Assembly: GCF_004345265.1 (NCBI RefSeq)
Contig: NZ_SLUM01000002.1
Span: 1-64,000, forward strand
DNA: 64,000 bases
Direction of reading: 5' to 3'
Source of the DNA: Allofournierella massiliensis
GTDB lineage: Bacteria; Bacillota; Clostridia; Oscillospirales; Ruminococcaceae
Every line of letters starts with the position of its first letter. Positions within the stretch are counted from its first letter, which is position 1. Below are positions 54,065-63,962 of this stretch, in pieces. Position numbers and translations under genes: made by a program. The notes beneath the pieces were generated by a model, which saw only the letters and a list, made by a program, of their open reading frames with translations, searched no databases and had not been told where the DNA came from.

Positions 54065-55723
54065 TCACTGGGTTTCCTGCTCAAACTGGAGATTATCGAA
54101 GCTGGTCAGCTCCTGGGCCTGGCTGGTGCGGGGGTAATATTCCACCTTCACCTGATCTCCCGGCTGAGTAATGGCCAGCTCGGCGGAAAGGCTGCCCTGC
54201 ACGCTGAACAGCAGCTCAGGATGCTCGTTCAGCACCAGATAATAGGTAGAGCCGCTGCTGTTGTACTCGCTGCCGATGCGCTGAACGGTACCGGTCAGGC
54301 TGGTAAGCTCGCTGTTCACATTGCCCACCATGGTGCTGCCGCCTGCACGCAGTGCCTTTTCATAGCTCAGGCGAGCCTCGTCGATGGTGTCGCCCACGCC
54401 CACGGTCTGATAGTCCTCCACCGATACATAGGCGTATTTCTTGATCAGACCTTCGTTGTCCTTCAGGGTCATGAAGTAGGTGGGCCGGCTGTTCAGATTG
54501 ACAATCAGCGGGAAGGCCGCCTGGTAGCCGTACTGCTGCACCTCGCCCTGAGCCGACTGCTGAGCCGCCGTCTCGGTGGCGCCGCTGATGCGGTACAGAT
54601 GCGGCTCCTTGGTGACCATGTCCACCATTACAAAACCGATGGCGCTCTCGTCGCCGCCCACACTGGTCAGGCCGGTGAACAGATAGCAGCTGCCGTCGTT
54701 GTAAATCAGGGTTTCGCCGGGGCTGGTACGGTACTTGTCCTTATCACTGAAGTTCAGGTAGCCATGCACGTACTCGCCCTTGTTGTTCAGCTGGGTTACA
54801 ATGAAATCCTCCGGCTGAACGCGATCTACCCAGTCGGGAAGCTCGTCAATGTTGTAACGCTGGCTTTCGCCGGTGGAGCAGTTGAGTACCACCGCGCCGG
54901 TGGCCTCCGGCAGCGAGAAGCCCCGCAGATACTTATAGGTAGTGATGACCCAGTAGGGCTGGCCGGAATCGTCCAGCTCAAAGCTGTAATCGGTCAGGCC
55001 GGTGAAGGGTGCGGCCGTGAAGCGGGCATAGAACATCAGGTTCTGCCACAGATAGGCGCACGGCTGGTATTTGATGGTGTAGCCGTCCACATACTGCACG
55101 TCCTGAGGATTGATGGCGGATACCACCACATAACCGGGAGTGCCTTCCAGATTGGTAAGCCATTTGAATACACCGGAATGGTAGGTGGGTACCGCCCAGA
55201 CCAGCTTTCCGTTCACCTGCTGCAGGGTGGGCTCGCCCAGCACCACCTGGCTGCCCAGGCTGGGACGCTCGCCCAGTTTTTTGTCCGCCAGCTTCTGAGC
55301 CATGGCCTTATCCACAATGGGCAGCTGGCTGGTATCGGTGGTGTCGAAGTCCTCAGCGAAGTCCATCTGAACCAGCTCCGGCATCTGATCCCGGAAGGCG
55401 TTCACCTGGAACAGAACGCTGGATCCGGCCCATACAATAAAGTACGCGCCCCAGAGCACTGCCACCAGAATCAGCGGCCAGCGGCTTCCGTTCTGGAAGC
55501 GTTCAAAACGCACACTGCCCGGCACGCCCTGTACCGGCCCCGGCTGTGCCACCACCCGGCCAATGCGGTCCAGAGTAAAGATGGCCACCAGCACCGTGAT
55601 CAGCACACAATACATAAATGCCGATTCCGGATAAAGAGGATTCAGGTTAGGGTGCTGAAACACCACATACAGTGCGAATACCAGCAACGTGGCCAGCACT
55701 GCCTTCAATTTCCAATGTTTCAT
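54065..55723 (-). CDS. Large hypothetical membrane protein (552 residues)
   Basis: Starts with AAAGGAACC upstream of the ATG at 55723. Three hydrophobic helices occur in the first 105 residues (LKAVLATLLVFALYVVF, FMYCVLITVLVAIFTL, WPLILVAVLWGAYFIVW). A long soluble, presumably extracytoplasmic region of about 440 residues follows, with repeated beta-rich segments: DKAMAQKLADKKLGE, GKLVWAVPTYHSGVFKW, YWVITTYKYLRGFS, YLFTGLTSVGGDESAIGFV. The last 70 residues look like an OB-type strand set (GTVQRIGSEYNSSGSTYYLV...GDQVKVEYYP). I do not recognise the family. Confidence 0.75.
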   Translation of the reverse strand: MKHWKLKAVLATLLVFALYVVFQHPNLNPLYPESAFMYCVLITVLVAIFTLDRIGRVVAQPGPVQGVPGSVRFERFQNGSRWPLILVAVLWGAYFIVWAGSSVLFQVNAFRDQMPELVQMDFAEDFDTTDTSQLPIVDKAMAQKLADKKLGERPSLGSQVVLGEPTLQQVNGKLVWAVPTYHSGVFKWLTNLEGTPGYVVVSAINPQDVQYVDGYTIKYQPCAYLWQNLMFYARFTAAPFTGLTDYSFELDDSGQPYWVITTYKYLRGFSLPEATGAVVLNCSTGESQRYNIDELPDWVDRVQPEDFIVTQLNNKGEYVHGYLNFSDKDKYRTSPGETLIYNDGSCYLFTGLTSVGGDESAIGFVMVDMVTKEPHLYRISGATETAAQQSAQGEVQQYGYQAAFPLIVNLNSRPTYFMTLKDNEGLIKKYAYVSVEDYQTVGVGDTIDEARLSYEKALRAGGSTMVGNVNSELTSLTGTVQRIGSEYNSSGSTYYLVLNEHPELLFSVQGSLSAELAITQPGDQVKVEYYPRTSQAQELTSFDNLQFEQETQ

Positions 55724-56356: not shown

Positions 56357-56433
56357 CCGGGTGTAGCGCAGTTTGGTAGCGCGCTTGAATGGGGTTCAAG
56401 AGGCCGTGAGTTCGACTCTCGCCACTCGGACCA
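56357..56433 (+). tRNA. tRNA-Pro (anticodon GGG)
   Basis: 77 bases with CCA encoded. The acceptor stem CCGGGTG pairs with CACTCGG (one G-U). The anticodon arm is CTTGA-ATGGGGT-TCAAG with anticodon GGG, and the T arm contains GTTCGAC T. Its 3' end faces the accessory island; I found no repeat of the 3' end elsewhere in the window. Confidence 0.95.
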
Positions 56434-56875: not shown

Positions 56876-57166
56876 TTACTTTCCAAACAAATCACTATGA
56901 GTCCCTGTACGGGTCAAAGTCAATACCAGAACATCGTCCTCAACTCGCTAGACCAAGAGCCAATCAGGCAAAATGTGACATTCTCGATGGCCGACCCAGT
57001 TGCCGGTAAGTGCGTGATCTTTATTCTTTTCTGGTAGAGATTGTCCTGCAGCCAAAAGAGCAACGATCTGTTCCAGCAATTCGATTTTCAAGCCACGCTT
57101 GATTGCCAGCTTGTAGTCCTTTCGGAATTGCGTGGTGAACTTGACCATATATTTTGTCTGGCTCAT
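56876..57166 (-). pseudogene. YafQ/RelE-type toxin gene with in-frame amber stop
   Basis: Reading from the ATG at 57166 gives a YafQ-like sequence (KYMVKFTTQFRKDYKLAIKR, HALTGNWVGHRECHILPDWL). A TAG at 56948-56950 then interrupts it at codon 73. The same frame continues as RVEDDVLVLTLTRTGTHSDL and ends GK-TAA at 56876, exactly the expected YafQ C-terminus. The intact product would be 95 residues plus the interrupted codon, normal for YafQ. The stop removes the last strand with the catalytic His (THSDLF). The toxin is thus probably inactive, unless amber suppression or a sequencing error is involved. It overlaps the antitoxin gene by four bases. Confidence 0.88.
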
Positions 57167-57441
57167 TTTTTCAAATCCGCAAACAACTCATCCATATCGG
57201 TGTATCCCTTTACAGACGGATCCTTTGCGATCCTTTCCGCCTCCAGCATGGCTGCAATCGTTTCCTTGTTGGGCTGATTTAAACTAATCTCAAAAGGAAT
57301 CCCGCCCTCTCGAAGAGACTGCCGGACAAAGATGTTGAATGCGGTGGACAGGTTCATGCCGAGTTCAGCAAACAGCGCATCAGCCTGTGCTTTCAGTTCG
57401 GAATCCATACGAATACTAATATTGGTGGTAGAACCGGCCAT
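57163..57441 (-). CDS. RelB/DinJ-family antitoxin
   Basis: A 92-residue protein with an N-terminal ribbon-helix-helix (TTNISIRMDSELKAQADALF, then LGMNLSTAFNIFVRQSL) and the DinJ-type GGIPFEISL linker that wraps the toxin. It neutralises the YafQ-type toxin and represses its own promoter. The gene is intact although its toxin is interrupted. GAAGGAG lies before the ATG, and the promoter begins 30 bases upstream. Confidence 0.9.
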   Translation of the reverse strand: MAGSTTNISIRMDSELKAQADALFAELGMNLSTAFNIFVRQSLREGGIPFEISLNQPNKETIAAMLEAERIAKDPSVKGYTDMDELFADLKK

Positions 57442-57926: not shown

Positions 57927-59597
57927 TTACGCAAACAGCTTCTTCTTTTCTCGAATTGTATAGACCGATGGATCTGCCAGCAGTGCATACCCATCGGATC
58001 TGCATCGAATATCTTCCTGCCACTTTTGACTCACACTCACATTATCCCCCTGGCAGCTGGTATGAGCCATGGGCTCTGTTTCAGCAACGATTAACTGCCA
58101 CCGGCTGTTAGCTGGCAAAGTCAGTTCGATGGCACATGCCGGCACCTCCGTCTCGCTGAACTCTTCGCCAGCCTGATACCGCAGCGGATGTGGATCATGA
58201 TACAGCGTACGGCTGACATGCTTCTGGAGACACATGTGATAGATTTCGCCGGGTGTGGCACCAATGGCCCCCGACCGCCGCATCTCCGACTTCTTCGCAT
58301 GGCCCATCTGCTGATACGCCTGTTTGGTATCCATGCCGCTCTCACAATATATCCAGGTACAGAAATTACGACGCAATGCATGACATGTAAGCATACTCAG
58401 CAAATAATTATCCTGGCACACCTCATCAAAACGATAAGGTCGGCTCTTCTTCAAGGCCTCCAAAATCCGCGGATCACGCAGAAGCTCAGGAATTTGCTCC
58501 GTAATATTGTTCATCGTACCGGACACCGTTTTTGCGTCCGTACAGTACTCCCCCGCCTGCACACTTCCACACATGAGCATCAAGGGAACGTTGCCATAAT
58601 CCCTTTCCAGCTCCTGCTGACGCTGCATCAGGATTTCTCCCAGTTCAACCGACAGCGGCACCACTCGATAGGACGACGTCGTTTTGGGAATTTCTGTTCG
58701 TGTGTTCGAACTGACGCCGAGCTGACCTGTAACACGCAAGTAATACATGGCGCCCTGCGAACCCTCCAGCCTGGCAATCGAACAAAACAGCAAACCTCCA
58801 TATTCACTGATCCGCAGCCCCGTGTCCGCCAATATACCGACCTGTCCCGACAGGATAGTCTCATCGCACACCTGCTTCAGTAAATTTCGCGGAATACTGC
58901 GGGCACTGTCAATATAAGACAGCAGCAGATCCTGCCGGGAAGGCTTACCCGCATAGCGCGTGGGCACGAGCGGTATATTATAGCCTTCCGTCGTCTTCAA
59001 ATCCCAGATCAGCAGATACAAGAGATTCAAGCGTTTTGCGCCCGATGGGGGAGCTTCTGTACCCGCCACCCAGTCAGATTTTTTGCGCGCAGTCCCCGCT
59101 GCGTTGCGGCAGATACGCTCCTGCAATGCACGATAAATTTCCGGCGTAAGAGATTCTGCCGTCGTTCCGCGCAATTCAGTGACCAAAATATCATACTGAC
59201 GCCGATAGTCATCGATTGTACGTTCGGCCCACTGCTGTTGATGAATCGAGAAGAACATCTCTTTATAGGACTCCGCCGCATCTCCCAGGTCATGGGTAGG
59301 CTCATAACGATTGCCGGCCGCCAACAATCCGGCCTGATACATCGCCTGAATCAACTCATTGGCAATGGCCGGAAAATGGTGCTCCTCAATGTCTGCCGGG
59401 TTTACTCCGTAAACAGGTTTATCCACCGGGCAATCGCTCTCACTGGCAAAAAGCTGGCGCTTGGTAATCACTTCACCGGTTTCGGGGTTGATGGGGCTTA
59501 TCAAGGCGCGGCACGGCGCCTTGGATGCTTTGCGACCCCTGGGGTAGGCCGTCCGTACACGGAAGCTGACCCCGCCATAATCAACTGTTTTTGTCAT
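57927..59597 (-). CDS. Tyrosine recombinase with complete catalytic set and C-terminal extension
   Basis: The start at 59597 overlaps the upstream gene stop (ATGA), with GGAGGGAAATCAA before it. The 556-residue product has an N-terminal arm/core-binding part to about 235. The catalytic domain carries Arg262 (ADTGLRISEYG), Lys305 (IPKTTSSYR), His406 and Arg409 (CHALRRNF), His433 (QMGHAKKSE) and a Tyr453 candidate nucleophile (GEIYHMC). That is the full tyrosine-recombinase set. An extra region of about 100 residues follows, rich in beta strands. The length exceeds typical integrases (about 380). It is coupled to a degenerate partner. Integration, excision or a programmed rearrangement are all possible roles. 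Confidence 0.85.
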   Translation of the reverse strand: MTKTVDYGGVSFRVRTAYPRGRKASKAPCRALISPINPETGEVITKRQLFASESDCPVDKPVYGVNPADIEEHHFPAIANELIQAMYQAGLLAAGNRYEPTHDLGDAAESYKEMFFSIHQQQWAERTIDDYRRQYDILVTELRGTTAESLTPEIYRALQERICRNAAGTARKKSDWVAGTEAPPSGAKRLNLLYLLIWDLKTTEGYNIPLVPTRYAGKPSRQDLLLSYIDSARSIPRNLLKQVCDETILSGQVGILADTGLRISEYGGLLFCSIARLEGSQGAMYYLRVTGQLGVSSNTRTEIPKTTSSYRVVPLSVELGEILMQRQQELERDYGNVPLMLMCGSVQAGEYCTDAKTVSGTMNNITEQIPELLRDPRILEALKKSRPYRFDEVCQDNYLLSMLTCHALRRNFCTWIYCESGMDTKQAYQQMGHAKKSEMRRSGAIGATPGEIYHMCLQKHVSRTLYHDPHPLRYQAGEEFSETEVPACAIELTLPANSRWQLIVAETEPMAHTSCQGDNVSVSQKWQEDIRCRSDGYALLADPSVYTIREKKKLFA

Positions 59598-61168
59598 TTG
59601 ATTTCCCTCCATTCCGCCTTTACGGCATAATCCGATATGATTTTCACCGTCTGTGGTCCTCCTGTGTCATTCTTAACCGCAAAGATATAGCGATTTGCTT
59701 TGCCGACCGCATCTTCAAAAGATGGACACCGCCGCAACCGCAGATAACGCGCCACAGCATACTCATCACTGAGGATATCCAGATAGGCTTCTTCATCTGT
59801 TTCACTTCGAGCGAGCCCGAACATGGCATGCAGCATCGGCAGGTCAGCACCACAGGTCTGGGCAAGGTACTGTGCATCCCGATAGAGCAGCTTGACACCA
59901 GCAACCTCTGCCTGCAGGTATACTGCTCCATTCTTCCGGGTACGCGGAATCGGACTTTCGGAAATTCCCGCCTTCGCCAAAAAATCACCGATCATCTCAT
60001 CCAGGTCTGCGGGGCCTACAATCGCACCATCCGGCGCCGGATCAGACAACCTCATCTGAGCAATCTGATGATTGCTATAACCTTGATTCCGCAGGTAATC
60101 GATGTACTCCAGCAAAATGGTGGCCGCCCACGGATAGAGGACCACCTTGCGCAGCCGCCTCAGCGGAAAGTCATTATTTGTGGGTCCGATCTGAGAATAC
60201 CGTTTATGCAATCTGCGCATAACGCTGGTGATTGTGATGACATAGCAGCTTTCGCCTCCTTCCAGAATCAGCTGCACGATGTCGCCAAAACGCTGGGCGC
60301 TGATTTCACAGGTTTCCATGCCGCAATAGATCATCGCCAGCACAAACATCAGATACTCGCGCCGCTCCACATTCTCAACTGCAAACAGTGCCGCCCTCTG
60401 ATCATCGTCCAGATGTGCACTGCGTACGCTGTTTACCAATGCGCTATTTTTGCCTTTGATCTTGGCAATCATATCCGCCAACTGAATGCCAGTCGCGCAA
60501 TCACCGTATCCGCTGCTCTCGATTGCAGCAAACAGCCCTTTATAGGCCCGTTTTGCATATCCGCGGTAGGATGCACTGGCCTTCTTCCGGGACAGAAGGT
60601 GGTTGACTTTGCAAATGAGCTGCGTCTGTGTGGTGCTATCCATATCACGCAAACGCATCTCCCCGATCACCGGCAGTACAAACGTACGGAGCGCCGACAT
60701 CATATGATTCCGGGCATCCGCCGTTTCGCCCAAAAACAATGCGTCTCCCGCATAATGTACATACTGCTCAATTGTCACATTGCCATACTCGATGTTGGCC
60801 TTCCAATAATGTGCAAACAGCAGCGCCGCCATGCGTTCGATCCGCGGCAGCAATTCCTTCTTCGCCCGCCTGGTTGCCTCCTGTGCAGTTTTGCCGCGGC
60901 AGCGCATCTCGTACTTGGCGTCGGGGTTTTCTTTTGCTTTCCGTTCGATTGCAGCAATGTCTGCCGCAATCATCTCTGCCAGGGCCGGCTGTTCCGCCGC
61001 GCGCTCTTTAAGCGCTGCCACAATCGTCGCATTTGTGTACGGGGCTCCCGTCTTCGGGTCGATCAACTGATAGATCGCATCCTGCTGCCCCTTCTGGTCG
61101 CGTGCTGGGCGGACATAAAACCGCTTTGTCCCACCCATGCAATCCGTGTCATTTTTTGATTTGGACAT
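59594..61168 (-). CDS. Degenerate tyrosine-recombinase-like protein
   Basis: A 524-residue protein. AAGGGA lies seven bases before the ATG at 61168. The N-terminal part has a charged helical region, and a core-binding-like part (YVHYAGDALFLGETADARNHMMSAL) is followed by a recombinase-like catalytic region. At the expected Arg it has IYCGMETCEISAQR, the His-x-x-Arg block is replaced by YRDAQYLAQTCG, and the last His region reads LHAMFGLARSETDEEAYLDI. A tyrosine may remain, but the Arg and His residues needed for catalysis are missing, so it is probably a non-catalytic partner. Its stop overlaps the start of the active recombinase. The fold assignment is moderate. Confidence 0.65.
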   Translation of the reverse strand: MSKSKNDTDCMGGTKRFYVRPARDQKGQQDAIYQLIDPKTGAPYTNATIVAALKERAAEQPALAEMIAADIAAIERKAKENPDAKYEMRCRGKTAQEATRRAKKELLPRIERMAALLFAHYWKANIEYGNVTIEQYVHYAGDALFLGETADARNHMMSALRTFVLPVIGEMRLRDMDSTTQTQLICKVNHLLSRKKASASYRGYAKRAYKGLFAAIESSGYGDCATGIQLADMIAKIKGKNSALVNSVRSAHLDDDQRAALFAVENVERREYLMFVLAMIYCGMETCEISAQRFGDIVQLILEGGESCYVITITSVMRRLHKRYSQIGPTNNDFPLRRLRKVVLYPWAATILLEYIDYLRNQGYSNHQIAQMRLSDPAPDGAIVGPADLDEMIGDFLAKAGISESPIPRTRKNGAVYLQAEVAGVKLLYRDAQYLAQTCGADLPMLHAMFGLARSETDEEAYLDILSDEYAVARYLRLRRCPSFEDAVGKANRYIFAVKNDTGGPQTVKIISDYAVKAEWREIK

Positions 61169-61273: not shown

Positions 61274-61440
61274 TCCGCAAAAACAAACAGCCATCCTGTA
61301 TGCTCCTTTCCGGCATTGCACCGGTCGGATCACAGAATGACTGTTTATCTCACAATATTTATATTAATAGCGCCAAAAGATCCCACTTCGAGTGGGCAAT
61401 TACGATTCGCCAAATTAGCACTCAGGTTGTGCTTTCTATG
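61274..61440 (-). ncRNA. Candidate structured RNA, unit A
   Basis: A promoter at 61446-61474 points into about 165 bases with no gene. The unit contains GCCCACT-CGA-AGTGGG (hairpin, 61382-61396) and ends in a long hairpin between 61285-61296 (minus GGATGGCTGTTT) and 61335-61346 (AAACAGTCATTC). An inner CCGG / CCGG helix precedes the GTTTGTTTTTG tail. Unit B, 410 bases away, has the same elements in the same order and spacing with diverged sequence. The conservation of structure and promoter position argues for a functional RNA. No known family is recognised. Confidence 0.6.
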
Positions 61441-61445
61441 TCCCT

Positions 61446-61474
61446 ATATTAACACACAGCATTTATTTTTGCAA
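61446..61474 (-). promoter_or_regulatory. Promoter of RNA unit A
   Basis: Minus strand TTGCAA (61469-61474), 17-base spacer, TAATAT (61446-61451), followed by AGGGACA. Confidence 0.65.
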
Positions 61475-61689
61475 CACTTTTTTATCAAATTTTTTTATTT
61501 ATTTTGCATTAAAAAAGTTCTTAGGTTTAAATTAAAAAACACAGAAATTTTCATTTTACAACATTCTTAGCTTCAAACAAAAAAAGAAACAATTCATTTA
61601 ATAAACCTTCAAATCAATACATCACAAAGAGAAAACCGCATGCTTCGATCTATAAAATTTTATAACAGAAAATTGTGAGTTATTTCTCA

Positions 61690-61837
61690 CATTGAACAAA
61701 AAGCCATCCCGCAACAGTCCGGCAATGCCGGCGCAATCACAGAATGGCTTTTTATCAGAAATAATCTTGTAAGCTCCAGAGGACGCACTTGGAGTGGGTA
61801 GTTTCGTTGCTCAAAATTCGCGTTGGATTCCTGTTTC
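61690..61837 (-). ncRNA. Candidate structured RNA, unit B
   Basis: Transcribed from a promoter at 61843-61871, starting near GGGAAACAGG. It has the hairpin CACT-CCA-AGTG (61786-61796) and then, 33 bases on, a terminal hairpin AAAAAGCCAT (61744-61753 on the minus strand) with ATGGCTTTTT (61698-61707). The terminal hairpin encloses a CCGGC-ATT-GCCGG helix and is followed by TTTTTGTTC. Shared words with unit A include GTGATnnG, GCATTGCCGG or TGCAATGCCGG, and GGATGGCT. Pairing in the terminal stem is kept in both units despite base changes, one mismatch excepted in A. Confidence 0.6.
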
Positions 61838-61842
61838 CCTTT

Positions 61843-61871
61843 ATGATATGAATTGCATCTGCAGATATCAA
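61843..61871 (-). promoter_or_regulatory. Promoter of RNA unit B
   Basis: Minus strand TTGATA (61866-61871), 17-base spacer, TATCAT (61843-61848), followed by AAAGGGAAA. Confidence 0.65.
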
Positions 61872-61874
61872 TCA

Positions 61875-61898
61875 ATCTTCTGAAAATTTTCAGAAGAT
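61875..61898. promoter_or_regulatory. Perfect 24-base palindrome beside the RNA unit B promoter
   Basis: ATCTTCTGAAAA / TTTTCAGAAGAT with no spacer. It overlaps the stop codon of the DUF6809-like gene and ends three bases upstream of the -35 box of unit B. It could be an operator, a recombinase site, or a loop-poor terminator for the upstream operon. Confidence 0.7.
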
Positions 61899-62189
61899 GT
61901 CATGTGCGGCTGCATCAATCCGCTTGCGGAGAATTTCCTGAACCTCCTGCATCAGCAGCAGTCCGGTGGAAAACCCGTATTGAAATGCATCGCTGCTTTC
62001 TGTATCGCAGACAATCAGTGTCTGTTCCAGCATCTGGTCCACCAGCGCCATATCCTCCTCGCTCAGATTGTTCCGCAGGTCTTTCAGGAGCTGTTCAATC
62101 TCCTTACCCGCCTGTTTGTGCCGACCGTTTCCTTCCATGTTGTTTTCACAGGGAAGCAACTCTCCCCGGTAGATTGCATCCAATACCAT
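61890..62189 (-). CDS. DUF6809-like small protein
   Basis: The start at 62189 has GGAGGG seven bases upstream; an in-frame GTG at 62210 overlaps the upstream stop. The 99-residue product begins MVLDAIYRGELLPCENNM, a pattern I associate with DUF6809 (a short helical domain starting with a Y-x-G-x-x-x-PCE motif). Later segments LSEEDMALVDQMLEQTLIVC and AFQYGFSTGLLLMQEV are amphipathic helices. The role is unknown. It follows the GHKL-nuclease gene by 17 bases, so the two are co-expressed and the protein could modulate that enzyme. Confidence 0.7.
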   Translation of the reverse strand: MVLDAIYRGELLPCENNMEGNGRHKQAGKEIEQLLKDLRNNLSEEDMALVDQMLEQTLIVCDTESSDAFQYGFSTGLLLMQEVQEILRKRIDAAAHDIF

Positions 62190-62206
62190 GCGGATTCCCT
62201 CCTTTA

Positions 62207-63748
62207 TCACAGAAGCTGCTTTTCTTTGTGGGTAGCAAGAGAGAAGTTGTAGGGCGCACTGGGCCGTCCGTCCGGGAAGTTGGGCGCGGGCAGGGTATTC
62301 AGAATGCGCACCATCTCCTGCAGTCTGTCAGAATAGCCGTTTGTCAGCAGGATTCCCCGGGTGGGCTGAATTCCCTCCAGAACCAGACCGTCCCAGTACA
62401 TCCGCAGCTGGTACAGATCCTTCGGTTCCGCCTTTCGAGTCTTCAGCTCATAGATATCGCATTTTCCATTTTCTCCTTTGTCCACCACATCCACGCGGGT
62501 ACCGGTGGGCCAAACACAAATTTCGCTGGTTACCTCATCCTCCGGGTTTGCTGCCTTGAGAATTTTCATCCACTTCTTTTTCAGTTCATCCTCGCTGAAT
62601 GTGGCGGCGTTTTTCTGCGGCGGGAACTCTGCCAGCGCTTCAAAGACCTTGTCCCAGTCCGGGTCGTTGCGGTCGATACCGGTCTTGTTATTCAGGGTGG
62701 CAAGAACACCACGGGGCAGCTCCGGCAGGATCAGCTCGCCCACAAAATCGTTGTAGCTGTTGTGCCGGGAAATGGGCGTGCCGTCTTCTTTGTGCCAGAT
62801 TTCCCCCAGCTGAGCGGTGGCAATCACCCGCTTGCCCAACCGGATATCGATGCCCTGCGTGGGCTGGGTTCCCTGATAGTAATACCGGGCCTTGCCGCCC
62901 AGTACCAGATGATCCCGCTTGGATTTATCGAGGGTACCGTGGACGTAAATCACCGGTACAATCTGGCCATCCAGTTCCACTTCCAGCTTTTCGGTGCGGG
63001 CCATCATCATGGGAACCTGGATAGGCGGAACCAGCATGCTGCTCTGGCCTACCGTTACCGCGATCTTGGCGCTGGGCTCCAGCGTGACCGGATCCAGTTC
63101 CAGATAGCCCCGGTACGCAACGCCCAGATGCTCGATCAGCCACAGCCGCAGAGTTGCCAGATCGCTGAGCTTCCGGTTGCCCTGCCGCTGCAGAGTGCGG
63201 GCAATGGCCATCGGCACCCGCACATAGATGACCGTGGAGGGATCGAGCCACTGAAGATTCAGGCCTTCGGGCAGCTGAAGATGGGTTTCCTCGGTTACAG
63301 TCATCTTCAGGTCAAAGGGGCCGCTTACTTTGTAATAAGGGCCGGGCTGGCTGCGGGTGTAGATGCACCAGTCACCGGTGCCGCCGGACAGACAGGCCAG
63401 TGCATTGTTGAGACCATATCCGTGCTCATTCAGGCGGCTGTTGGTCAGCGGAGCACTGCCCAGCTGAAGCGCATTGGTGAGTGCGGCAAGATCCATGCCA
63501 CAGCCCCAGTCGGCCACTGCCAGATGAATATAGTTCTTGTCCGCATCAGGTGCCAGCGCCACACAGATCCGGGCCTTTTCGCCCGCCAGTGCGGCGGCAA
63601 GAGCATCATCGCACCCCTCGAGGATACCCTGATGGAAGAGCATTCCCTGACGGGCCAGCCCGACAAAAGCCTTGCGGGTGATGTTGATGGCGATTTCGTG
63701 GCTTTCGTTGGTGCAAGCGGTGATGTTGTTCATGTTCTGGTTGTTCAT
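62207..63748 (-). CDS. GHKL (Hsp90/MORC-like) ATPase fused to a Cas4-like PD-(D/E)XK nuclease domain
   Basis: A 513-residue protein with GAGAGGA before the ATG at 63748. The GHKL Bergerat fold is shown by the N box GILEGCDDAL (Glu44, Asp47), the G1 box DWGCGMD (80-86) and the G2 box NEHGYGLNNAL (108-117). A transducer-like middle region extends to about 380. Residues about 408-475 hold GTRVDVVDKGENGKCDIYELK with D420, D431/E434 and K436, then QLRMYWDGLVLEG: the VD...(D/E)xK...QLxxY pattern of Cas4/Dna2-type nucleases. ATP-gated DNA cleavage is therefore plausible. Such ATPase-nuclease pairings occur in defence loci. No close named family is recognised. Confidence 0.8.
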   Translation of the reverse strand: MNNQNMNNITACTNESHEIAINITRKAFVGLARQGMLFHQGILEGCDDALAAALAGEKARICVALAPDADKNYIHLAVADWGCGMDLAALTNALQLGSAPLTNSRLNEHGYGLNNALACLSGGTGDWCIYTRSQPGPYYKVSGPFDLKMTVTEETHLQLPEGLNLQWLDPSTVIYVRVPMAIARTLQRQGNRKLSDLATLRLWLIEHLGVAYRGYLELDPVTLEPSAKIAVTVGQSSMLVPPIQVPMMMARTEKLEVELDGQIVPVIYVHGTLDKSKRDHLVLGGKARYYYQGTQPTQGIDIRLGKRVIATAQLGEIWHKEDGTPISRHNSYNDFVGELILPELPRGVLATLNNKTGIDRNDPDWDKVFEALAEFPPQKNAATFSEDELKKKWMKILKAANPEDEVTSEICVWPTGTRVDVVDKGENGKCDIYELKTRKAEPKDLYQLRMYWDGLVLEGIQPTRGILLTNGYSDRLQEMVRILNTLPAPNFPDGRPSAPYNFSLATHKEKQLL

Positions 63749-63842: not shown

Positions 63843-63918
63843 GCAGATTGGATTGTTTTAACGTACGGTTCATTTTGCGTTTGCCGTGTCTGAGTTGCCG
63901 CTCAGATACGGCTTTTTT
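63843..63918 (+). ncRNA. Candidate very short RNA (about 75 nt)
   Basis: Between the promoter at 63808-63836 and a strong terminator (GCCGT-G-TCTGAG at 63883-63894 with CTCAGA-T-ACGGC at 63901-63912, then TTTTTT) there are only about 40 bases, with no usable gene. The unit would make a 75-nt RNA divergent from the GHKL operon. It could also be a decayed gene remnant. Confidence 0.5.
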
Positions 63919-63962
63919 CGTGTGGGGAAAGCAATCTTTATCACGGCCAGCAGGCAGGGACA

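Follow-up and report, generated by a model that had tools for sequence, protein, structure and literature searches.

A candidate family of attenuator-like leader RNAs preceding unrelated genes in Gemmiger-like gut bacteria

Results and discussion

Two tandem units and the reading proposed for them

Within the window (the whole 64,000-nt stretch of Allofournierella massiliensis DNA analysed here), two related units, A and B, stand in tandem on the minus strand, with B upstream of A. Judged from sequence, we give a probability of about 0.6 to the reading that they are members of a 5′ leader RNA family acting as transcription attenuators; the candidate leaders form a new family, found so far in three genera, of a kind that is already known. 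In the proposed arrangement a sigma-70-type promoter would be followed by a short 5′ tail, a first hairpin (H1) with a CGnAAnUnCY loop, a linker and an intrinsic terminator (T2). By default RNA polymerase would halt at T2 and leave an RNA of 130–165 nt as the only product, and the downstream gene would be expressed only upon read-through of T2, for which recognition of H1 by a signal or factor is the presumed trigger; in the window, A would control the Rec1–Rec2 operon. Below we document the family itself, how it is structured and conserved, and where it stands before several unrelated genes; termination, read-through and regulation we infer from these sequences.

Unit A (61279..61444, minus strand) is a leader of ~166 nt that runs from a presumed start at GGGACA through the whole U-tract, and unit B (61696..61840, minus strand) is one of ~145 nt. 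They are diverged homologues, with 69% identity over the aligned part (E 4.7e-5 and 4.2e-5 in two blastn runs), and no other match of the A/B region in its own genome is more than a short word (21 bp or less). The first-pass annotation had described two related minus-strand units with 17-bp promoter spacers, a GGGA start region and a terminal hairpin with a CCGG helix and U-rich tail, all of which are borne out. The promoter boxes, also on the minus strand, are TTGCAA-17-TAATAT for A (61446..61474; 8/12 consensus bases, read from the sequence) and TTGATA-17-TATCAT for B (61843..61871; box scan). The promoter of A is the weakest call, since a second, displaced box pair also scores 8/12 in a mechanical scan. 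Five of the six other B copies have TATAAT instead of TATCAT as the −10 box (TTGATA-17-TATAAT), and across all 16 members of the family the boxes score 8–12 of 12. The 251 bp separating the end of B from the start of A (61697-61445) have a G+C content of 22.7% and no evident gene.

Alignment of 11 representatives (alignment A6) and pair counts place H1 at 61381..61420 in A, with the loop CGTAATTGCC at 61395-61404, and at 61784..61823 in B, with the loop CGAAACTACC at 61797-61806. T2 of A (61279..61349; fold and covariation) consists of AAACAG...CTGTTT arms around an inner CCGG helix, followed by the U-tract; T2 of B (61696..61756; fold) has the arms AAAAAGCC...GGCTTTTT. Folded alone, the two terminators reach −35.5 (A) and −34.1 kcal/mol (B). 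As whole units, A folds with a z of −4.2 against shuffles (0/200 equal it) and B with a z of −2.5 (5/200 equal it).

Members in related genomes

Covariance searches of 396 genomes of the family yielded 16 members, spread over 7 genomes from three genera (Gemmiger, Fournierella and a third), and the relatives in named records are Gemmiger An50, An87 and An120 and Candidatus Fournierella merdipullorum. The genome of the window (G000) has one A and one B; G001 has one A and two B; G002 has one A, three B and two C; G006 has a B, G102 a D, G399 a D and an E, and G339 an F. By DNA search of 100 relatives, clear B copies were confined to the same genus (G001, G002, G006). A first model (R1, from seven B and three A copies) detected the two C copies of G002 and the D of G102 among 198 genomes; a second (R2, 13 sequences) detected D and E in G399 and F in G339 among the 396 family genomes, and nothing new was accepted with it among 394 genomes of the order. 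Unit A scores 122.5 bits with R2 and 109.8 with R3, a third model built from 11 representatives, and unit B 147 and 133 bits, respectively.

With R3 the 16 members score 98–134 bits against 44 bits for the best rejected match. Scores of this kind are partly so by construction, since these members also went into the models; C and D were detected before they entered any model (with R1), and E and F likewise (with R2). R3 matches at E 0.01 or better occur in 33 of the 396 genomes, of which seven were accepted. We inspected 23 of the 26 others (the inspected matches leave out G048, G120, G284 and four further matches in G218): 22 lacked H1, being plain terminators or other sequence, and the remaining one, in G014 (L118), is a T2 remnant identical to that of Gemmiger An120 (L086). 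The stored weak matches from the R1, R2 and order-wide searches were likewise rejected on inspection, and reverse-strand matches on accepted members were dropped, T2 being palindromic. Among other sequences, G001:C11:34565-34776 (L072), in a genome that also has true leaders, holds an almost perfect inverted repeat whose arms are T2-like (CCATTCTGTGATT ... AATCACAGAATGG); it has a T-run and lacks H1.

That models below ~45 bits do match plain terminators is what would be expected if A and B were ordinary intrinsic terminators and promoters of no common ancestry, alike by chance or composition. Against this stand the distance of the accepted members from the best rejected match and the H1 loop that members share, and we regard chance likeness as very unlikely, to the point of being negligible, given the score gap with R3, the structure statistics of alignment A6 and the constant spacing to start codons described below.

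Catalogues and collections gave no name to these RNAs, in agreement with the first-pass view that the units are unlike known families. At the gathering threshold, Rfam matched only two tRNAs in the whole window. Relaxed scans of A and B in the window, of C, D, E and F, and of B from L030 and L033 gave sub-threshold matches only: one snoRNA model and one microRNA model in the A/B region, four matches in L057-L059, all away from the leaders, and in L030 and L033 a microRNA model over T2 of B, with others elsewhere. The A/B region had no match in the plasmid and phage collections, nor had C in the plasmid collection or D in the phage collection. A scan of viral contigs with four leader patterns gave two matches, both to the first pattern and both in sequence without an R3 match. 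No account of these leaders was found in the literature searched, including the accessible parts of PMC11109978, PMC8632094, PMC12691694 and PMC3369931.

Conserved anatomy and covariation

In alignment A6 the units share one order: H1, a variable linker, and T2 with the conserved 5′ arm AAAnAGyCAy. H1 is ~13 bp long, and its loop is CGnAAnUnCY in 15/16 members, the exception being the B of L032 (CGAAGCTACC). With the 11 representatives, 87.1% of cells are paired, as opposed to 39–50% for slid versions of the structure, and 12 of 31 pairs carry changes on both sides. Four of five structure measures were equalled by 0/500 shuffles and the fifth (further pair types) by 121, counts that are not probabilities, since shuffles do not preserve relatedness. 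For H1 alone, the covariation score was equalled by 0/500 shuffles, the number of both-side-changed cells by 1/500 and the paired percentage by 3/500; two measures are weak (pairs with both-side changes, 81/500; further pair types, 308/500). Two H1 positions are unpaired in 8/11 and 6/11 sequences, and in the A copies compared 3 of the 13 model pairs of H1 are non-standard.

The first-pass annotation had seen A and B as paralogous structured RNAs under selection, with an outer terminator stem altered on both sides, and had pointed to a covariance-model search. That search recovered covarying homologues from related genomes, and in the outer T2 stem both sides do differ, with AU replaced by CG in A and by GC in E. 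The small CACT/AGTG hairpin of the same annotation fared less well: it folds locally in A, yet shows no covariation on the 11-sequence alignment, where it is 80.3% paired (equalled by 311/500 shuffles; score equalled by 378/500). The helix that comparison supports differs from this hairpin; it is longer, and its 3′ arm contains CACTC.

Nine members were folded, and their T2 energies range from −26 to −43 kcal/mol. In truncated folds of nine members, the 5′ arm of T2 is partly paired (mean 0.2–0.61), and no antiterminator (alternative) fold common to members was found in these folds. A U-tract follows directly upon H1 in C, D, E and F, so that H1 is a possible first terminator there; H1 of A and B has no long U-tract.

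Placement before unrelated genes

A Shine–Dalgarno sequence and ATG (SD-ATG) follow T2 in 12/16 members, all within 111 nt in a search extending to 140 nt. The distance from U-tract to ATG is 34–35 nt in seven members (three B, in L030, L033 and L034, two C and two D), 28 nt in F, 71 nt in E and 111 nt in the three A copies. The open reading frame after F has 3 codons only, and F may be a remnant. The genes so led are unrelated, of at least three kinds: Rec1 (A and E), a DUF1281-like gene (B and D) and a gene for a CxxCxxCC protein (C; family match at E 9.5e-4, under the cut-off). The name DUF1281-like is tentative, since the protein matches Pfam DUF1281_C at E 0.11 only; those led by B and by D are 35% identical. 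On one contig of G399, E precedes Rec1 and D precedes a DUF1281-like gene 7.7 kb away. In L030, L033 and L034, the B-led DUF1281-like gene lies near what we take to be a kdpABC potassium-pump operon.

The 34–35 nt of B, C and D include the SD, and a second promoter would have no evident space there, so either transcription of the gene should pass through T2 or T2 is leaky; a gene that would thus depend on reading past a terminator is, by its layout, an instance of the logic of attenuation. The generic attenuator layout (promoter and intrinsic terminator, with a start codon 28–35 nt after the U-tract) is seen in 8/16 members, counting F with its ORF of 3 codons only. At 71 nt (E) and 111 nt (A), the gap could possibly hold a second promoter.

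No SD-ATG lies within 140 nt in four of the 16 members, unit B of the window among them. The next element after B is A in L029, L032 and the window; in L031, other DNA follows. Window B apparently has no gene of its own, and leads the DUF1281-like gene in sister genomes. These four B copies without a nearby start codon would suit free-standing small regulatory RNAs, with T2 as their proper 3′ end, the neighbouring genes incidental and the H1 loop as the functional part that binds a target or protein; so would the promoter boxes, the very strong terminator, and the sequence conservation of the 5′ arm of T2 and of the H1 loop. A constant 34–35 nt between U-tract and ATG before the unrelated genes of B, C and D would be unexpected for independent small-RNA genes, and we consider such genes unlikely, if the most serious of the rival readings. 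The first-pass annotation had called A and B non-coding RNA units. Their being structured RNA stands, and stand-alone genes are less likely than leader or attenuator RNAs, because the genes that members directly precede belong to three or more unrelated families, with the start codon mostly 34–35 nt away. Units A and B are thus probably not free-standing RNAs, and A probably lies within the leader of the Rec1–Rec2 operon.

The Rec1–Rec2 operon and its surroundings

The first gene of the A-led operon, Rec1 (524 aa; 59594..61168, minus strand), starts at the ATG 111 nt after the U-tract of A, and its end is overlapped by Rec2 (561 aa; 57927..59612, minus strand), which is phage-integrase-like: it matches PF00589 at E 1.2e-5 with 25.5 bits (curated cut-off 27.1), and Rec2 of the E-led operon matches at E 1.1e-4, slightly under the curated cut-off. 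No credible relative of Rec1 was found in Pfam, NCBIfam or PADLOC, none by sequence among solved structures (PDB) at E up to 1, and none in viral contigs. Since Rec1 itself matches nothing, the word recombinase is applied to it by its pairing with Rec2.

A Rec1 homologue, 41% identical and with a leader of its own (E), occurs in Candidatus Fournierella merdipullorum. A collection of 84,980 species holds eight Rec1 loci, with a full leader in three (L079, L080, L081), only the T2 remnant in L086 and no leader in L082 and L083; L084 and L085 hold the C-terminal part of Rec1 only, and their leader status is left out of the count. Rec1 is also without a leader in L041, the second Rec1–Rec2 copy of the window's own genome, and DUF1281-like genes without an accepted leader occur in L107-L109. 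The leader is not obligatory for Rec1 or for DUF1281-like genes.

This patchy, multi-copy distribution, and the position of seven copies near Rec1 (three A, the B upstream of each, and E), would also be expected of a mobile or recombining promoter–terminator cassette without regulation, that is, of leftover module ends shuffled among loci, with terminators insulating inserted genes. Homology between loci breaks off at 61698 and 61863, near the ends of unit B, and a T2-only remnant exists, as such shuffling would predict. Covariation despite divergence, together with the conserved H1 loop, points instead to selection on the RNA and not to recent copying, and we find an unregulated cassette distinctly improbable.

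In both the window and G399, the leader-led Rec1–Rec2 operon adjoins a tRNA-Pro(ggg) gene (56357-56433, plus strand, and L076:4557-4633) whose 3′ end faces Rec2. In a search for an attachment repeat of the 3′ part of this tRNA, the matches listed for the whole of contig C2 of the window's genome include none longer than 14 bp other than the gene and the palindrome downstream of it, and those in L076 and L081 do not exceed 12 bp. As a separate observation, contig C19 of the same genome has a 51-bp perfect direct repeat of the 3′ part of a tRNA-Ala (54114-54164 and 73845-73895; L096, L097) enclosing ~19.8 kb with GHKL, DUF6809-like, Rec1 and Rec2 genes; the repeat bounding this segment is suggestive of an integrative element whose attachment sites can be recognised.

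Integron attC sites carry the core motifs RYYYAAC and GTTRRRY at the ends of their hairpins. The units could in principle be recombination sites of this sort, which would fold as single-stranded DNA and serve the integrase-like protein linked to them: the operon behind A and E includes an integrase-like gene and lies beside tRNA-Pro, the shape of the hairpin is conserved while its sequence varies, and variable DNA lies behind unit B. Both core motifs together occur in 0/16 members; RYYYAAC is absent from the 5′ part of T2 in 16/16, and there is a lone GTTRRRY match, in the B of L031. The B copies of L030, L033 and L034, as well as C and D, lead other genes, and the spacing of promoter and SD is conserved, all of which makes a folded-DNA site a remote prospect.

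Upstream of B, a DUF6809 gene (61890-62210, minus strand) is paired with a gene for a GHKL-type ATPase with a NucS-like C-terminus (62207-63748, minus strand; HATPase_c E 0.014, NucS_C E 7.9e-4, both under curated cut-offs). The pair has no PADLOC match and is present in three copies in its own genome (the others 97% and 84% identical), with differing downstream DNA. A check for linkage of the RNAs to the recombinases or the GHKL gene had been suggested at first pass. Linkage to the Rec1–Rec2 operon holds for A, and for E in another genus; linkage to the GHKL gene does not, as only the window copy of the pair has B behind it and the two other copies have no such RNA. Elsewhere in the neighbourhood, two small overlapping genes at 56948-57441 (minus strand) resemble what we take to be a YafQ/DinJ toxin–antitoxin pair, and a further terminator-like inverted repeat with a T-run lies upstream of the GHKL gene (63880-63930).

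A possible antitermination regulon

A bolder extension of the attenuator reading, which we offer only tentatively and consider doubtful, is that one factor other than a NusG paralogue reads the CGnAAnUnCY loop and opens the terminators of both the accessory genes and the integrase operon in elements of Gemmiger-like gut bacteria, which would couple mobility to a signal and constitute a new antitermination regulon. The usual answer to how an integrase is silenced and activated in chromosomal elements is repressors and promoters; if true, a leader RNA shared by an integrase-containing operon and accessory genes would be an answer given after initiation. As the RNA (~150 nt, models R2 and R3, a conserved loop) and its target genes are both defined, the design of reporter assays and pull-downs could start immediately. 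Were it merely a terminator cassette, its interest would be local.

Comparison with known systems

A close layout is that of the leaders controlled by LoaP, a NusG paralogue, in the dfn and mln operons of Bacillus velezensis, where, in the portion of PMC12691694 available, a small RNA hairpin precedes an intrinsic terminator and the gene is read after antitermination. The A/B family has the same order of hairpin and intrinsic terminator, a likeness at the level of layout; going by the same portion, the dfn leader template is 417 nt long, as against 130–165 nt here (PMC12691694). LoaP-type control is unsupported, a PF02357 search giving a single NusG-domain protein in each of the seven leader-bearing genomes (G000, G001, G002, G006, G102, G399 and G339, of which G399 is 83% and G339 75% complete); the same search does detect a second NusG-domain protein in G014, which has the T2 remnant only.

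Leaders of ANTAR antitermination systems (eut, nas, ami) likewise place leader hairpins upstream of an intrinsic terminator, and carry two small hairpins with hexaloops having A1 and G4, as described in the accessible part of PMC3369931. One ANTAR protein is encoded in 6/7 leader-bearing genomes, so that such antitermination is possible in principle. An A1/G4 hexaloop on a stem of at least 4 bp occurs in 0/16 leaders. With a 3-bp stem, at least one occurs in 9/16 (shuffle means 0.3–0.8 per leader), located in the 3′ arm of T2 in 8/9 and in H1 for the B of L032, with more than one in F only. The conserved dual pair of A1/G4 hexaloops upstream of T2 is absent, and ANTAR-type control is unsupported.

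Riboswitches and the cis-regulatory leaders of Rfam resemble the A/B family in having a structured leader and then a terminator before the start codon. They differ in that the family has no Rfam match at threshold among the leaders scanned, its H1 is small and simple, and the genes it leads have no evident common pathway.

A last parallel is with the put RNAs of phage HK022, a set of paralogous RNAs that lie close to promoters in a single mobile element and act on terminators. The put elements are not themselves known to be directly followed by a terminator and start codon, as most of the leaders described here are; the likeness lies in paralogous RNAs placed near promoters, with an action on terminators that is proposed for the A/B family.
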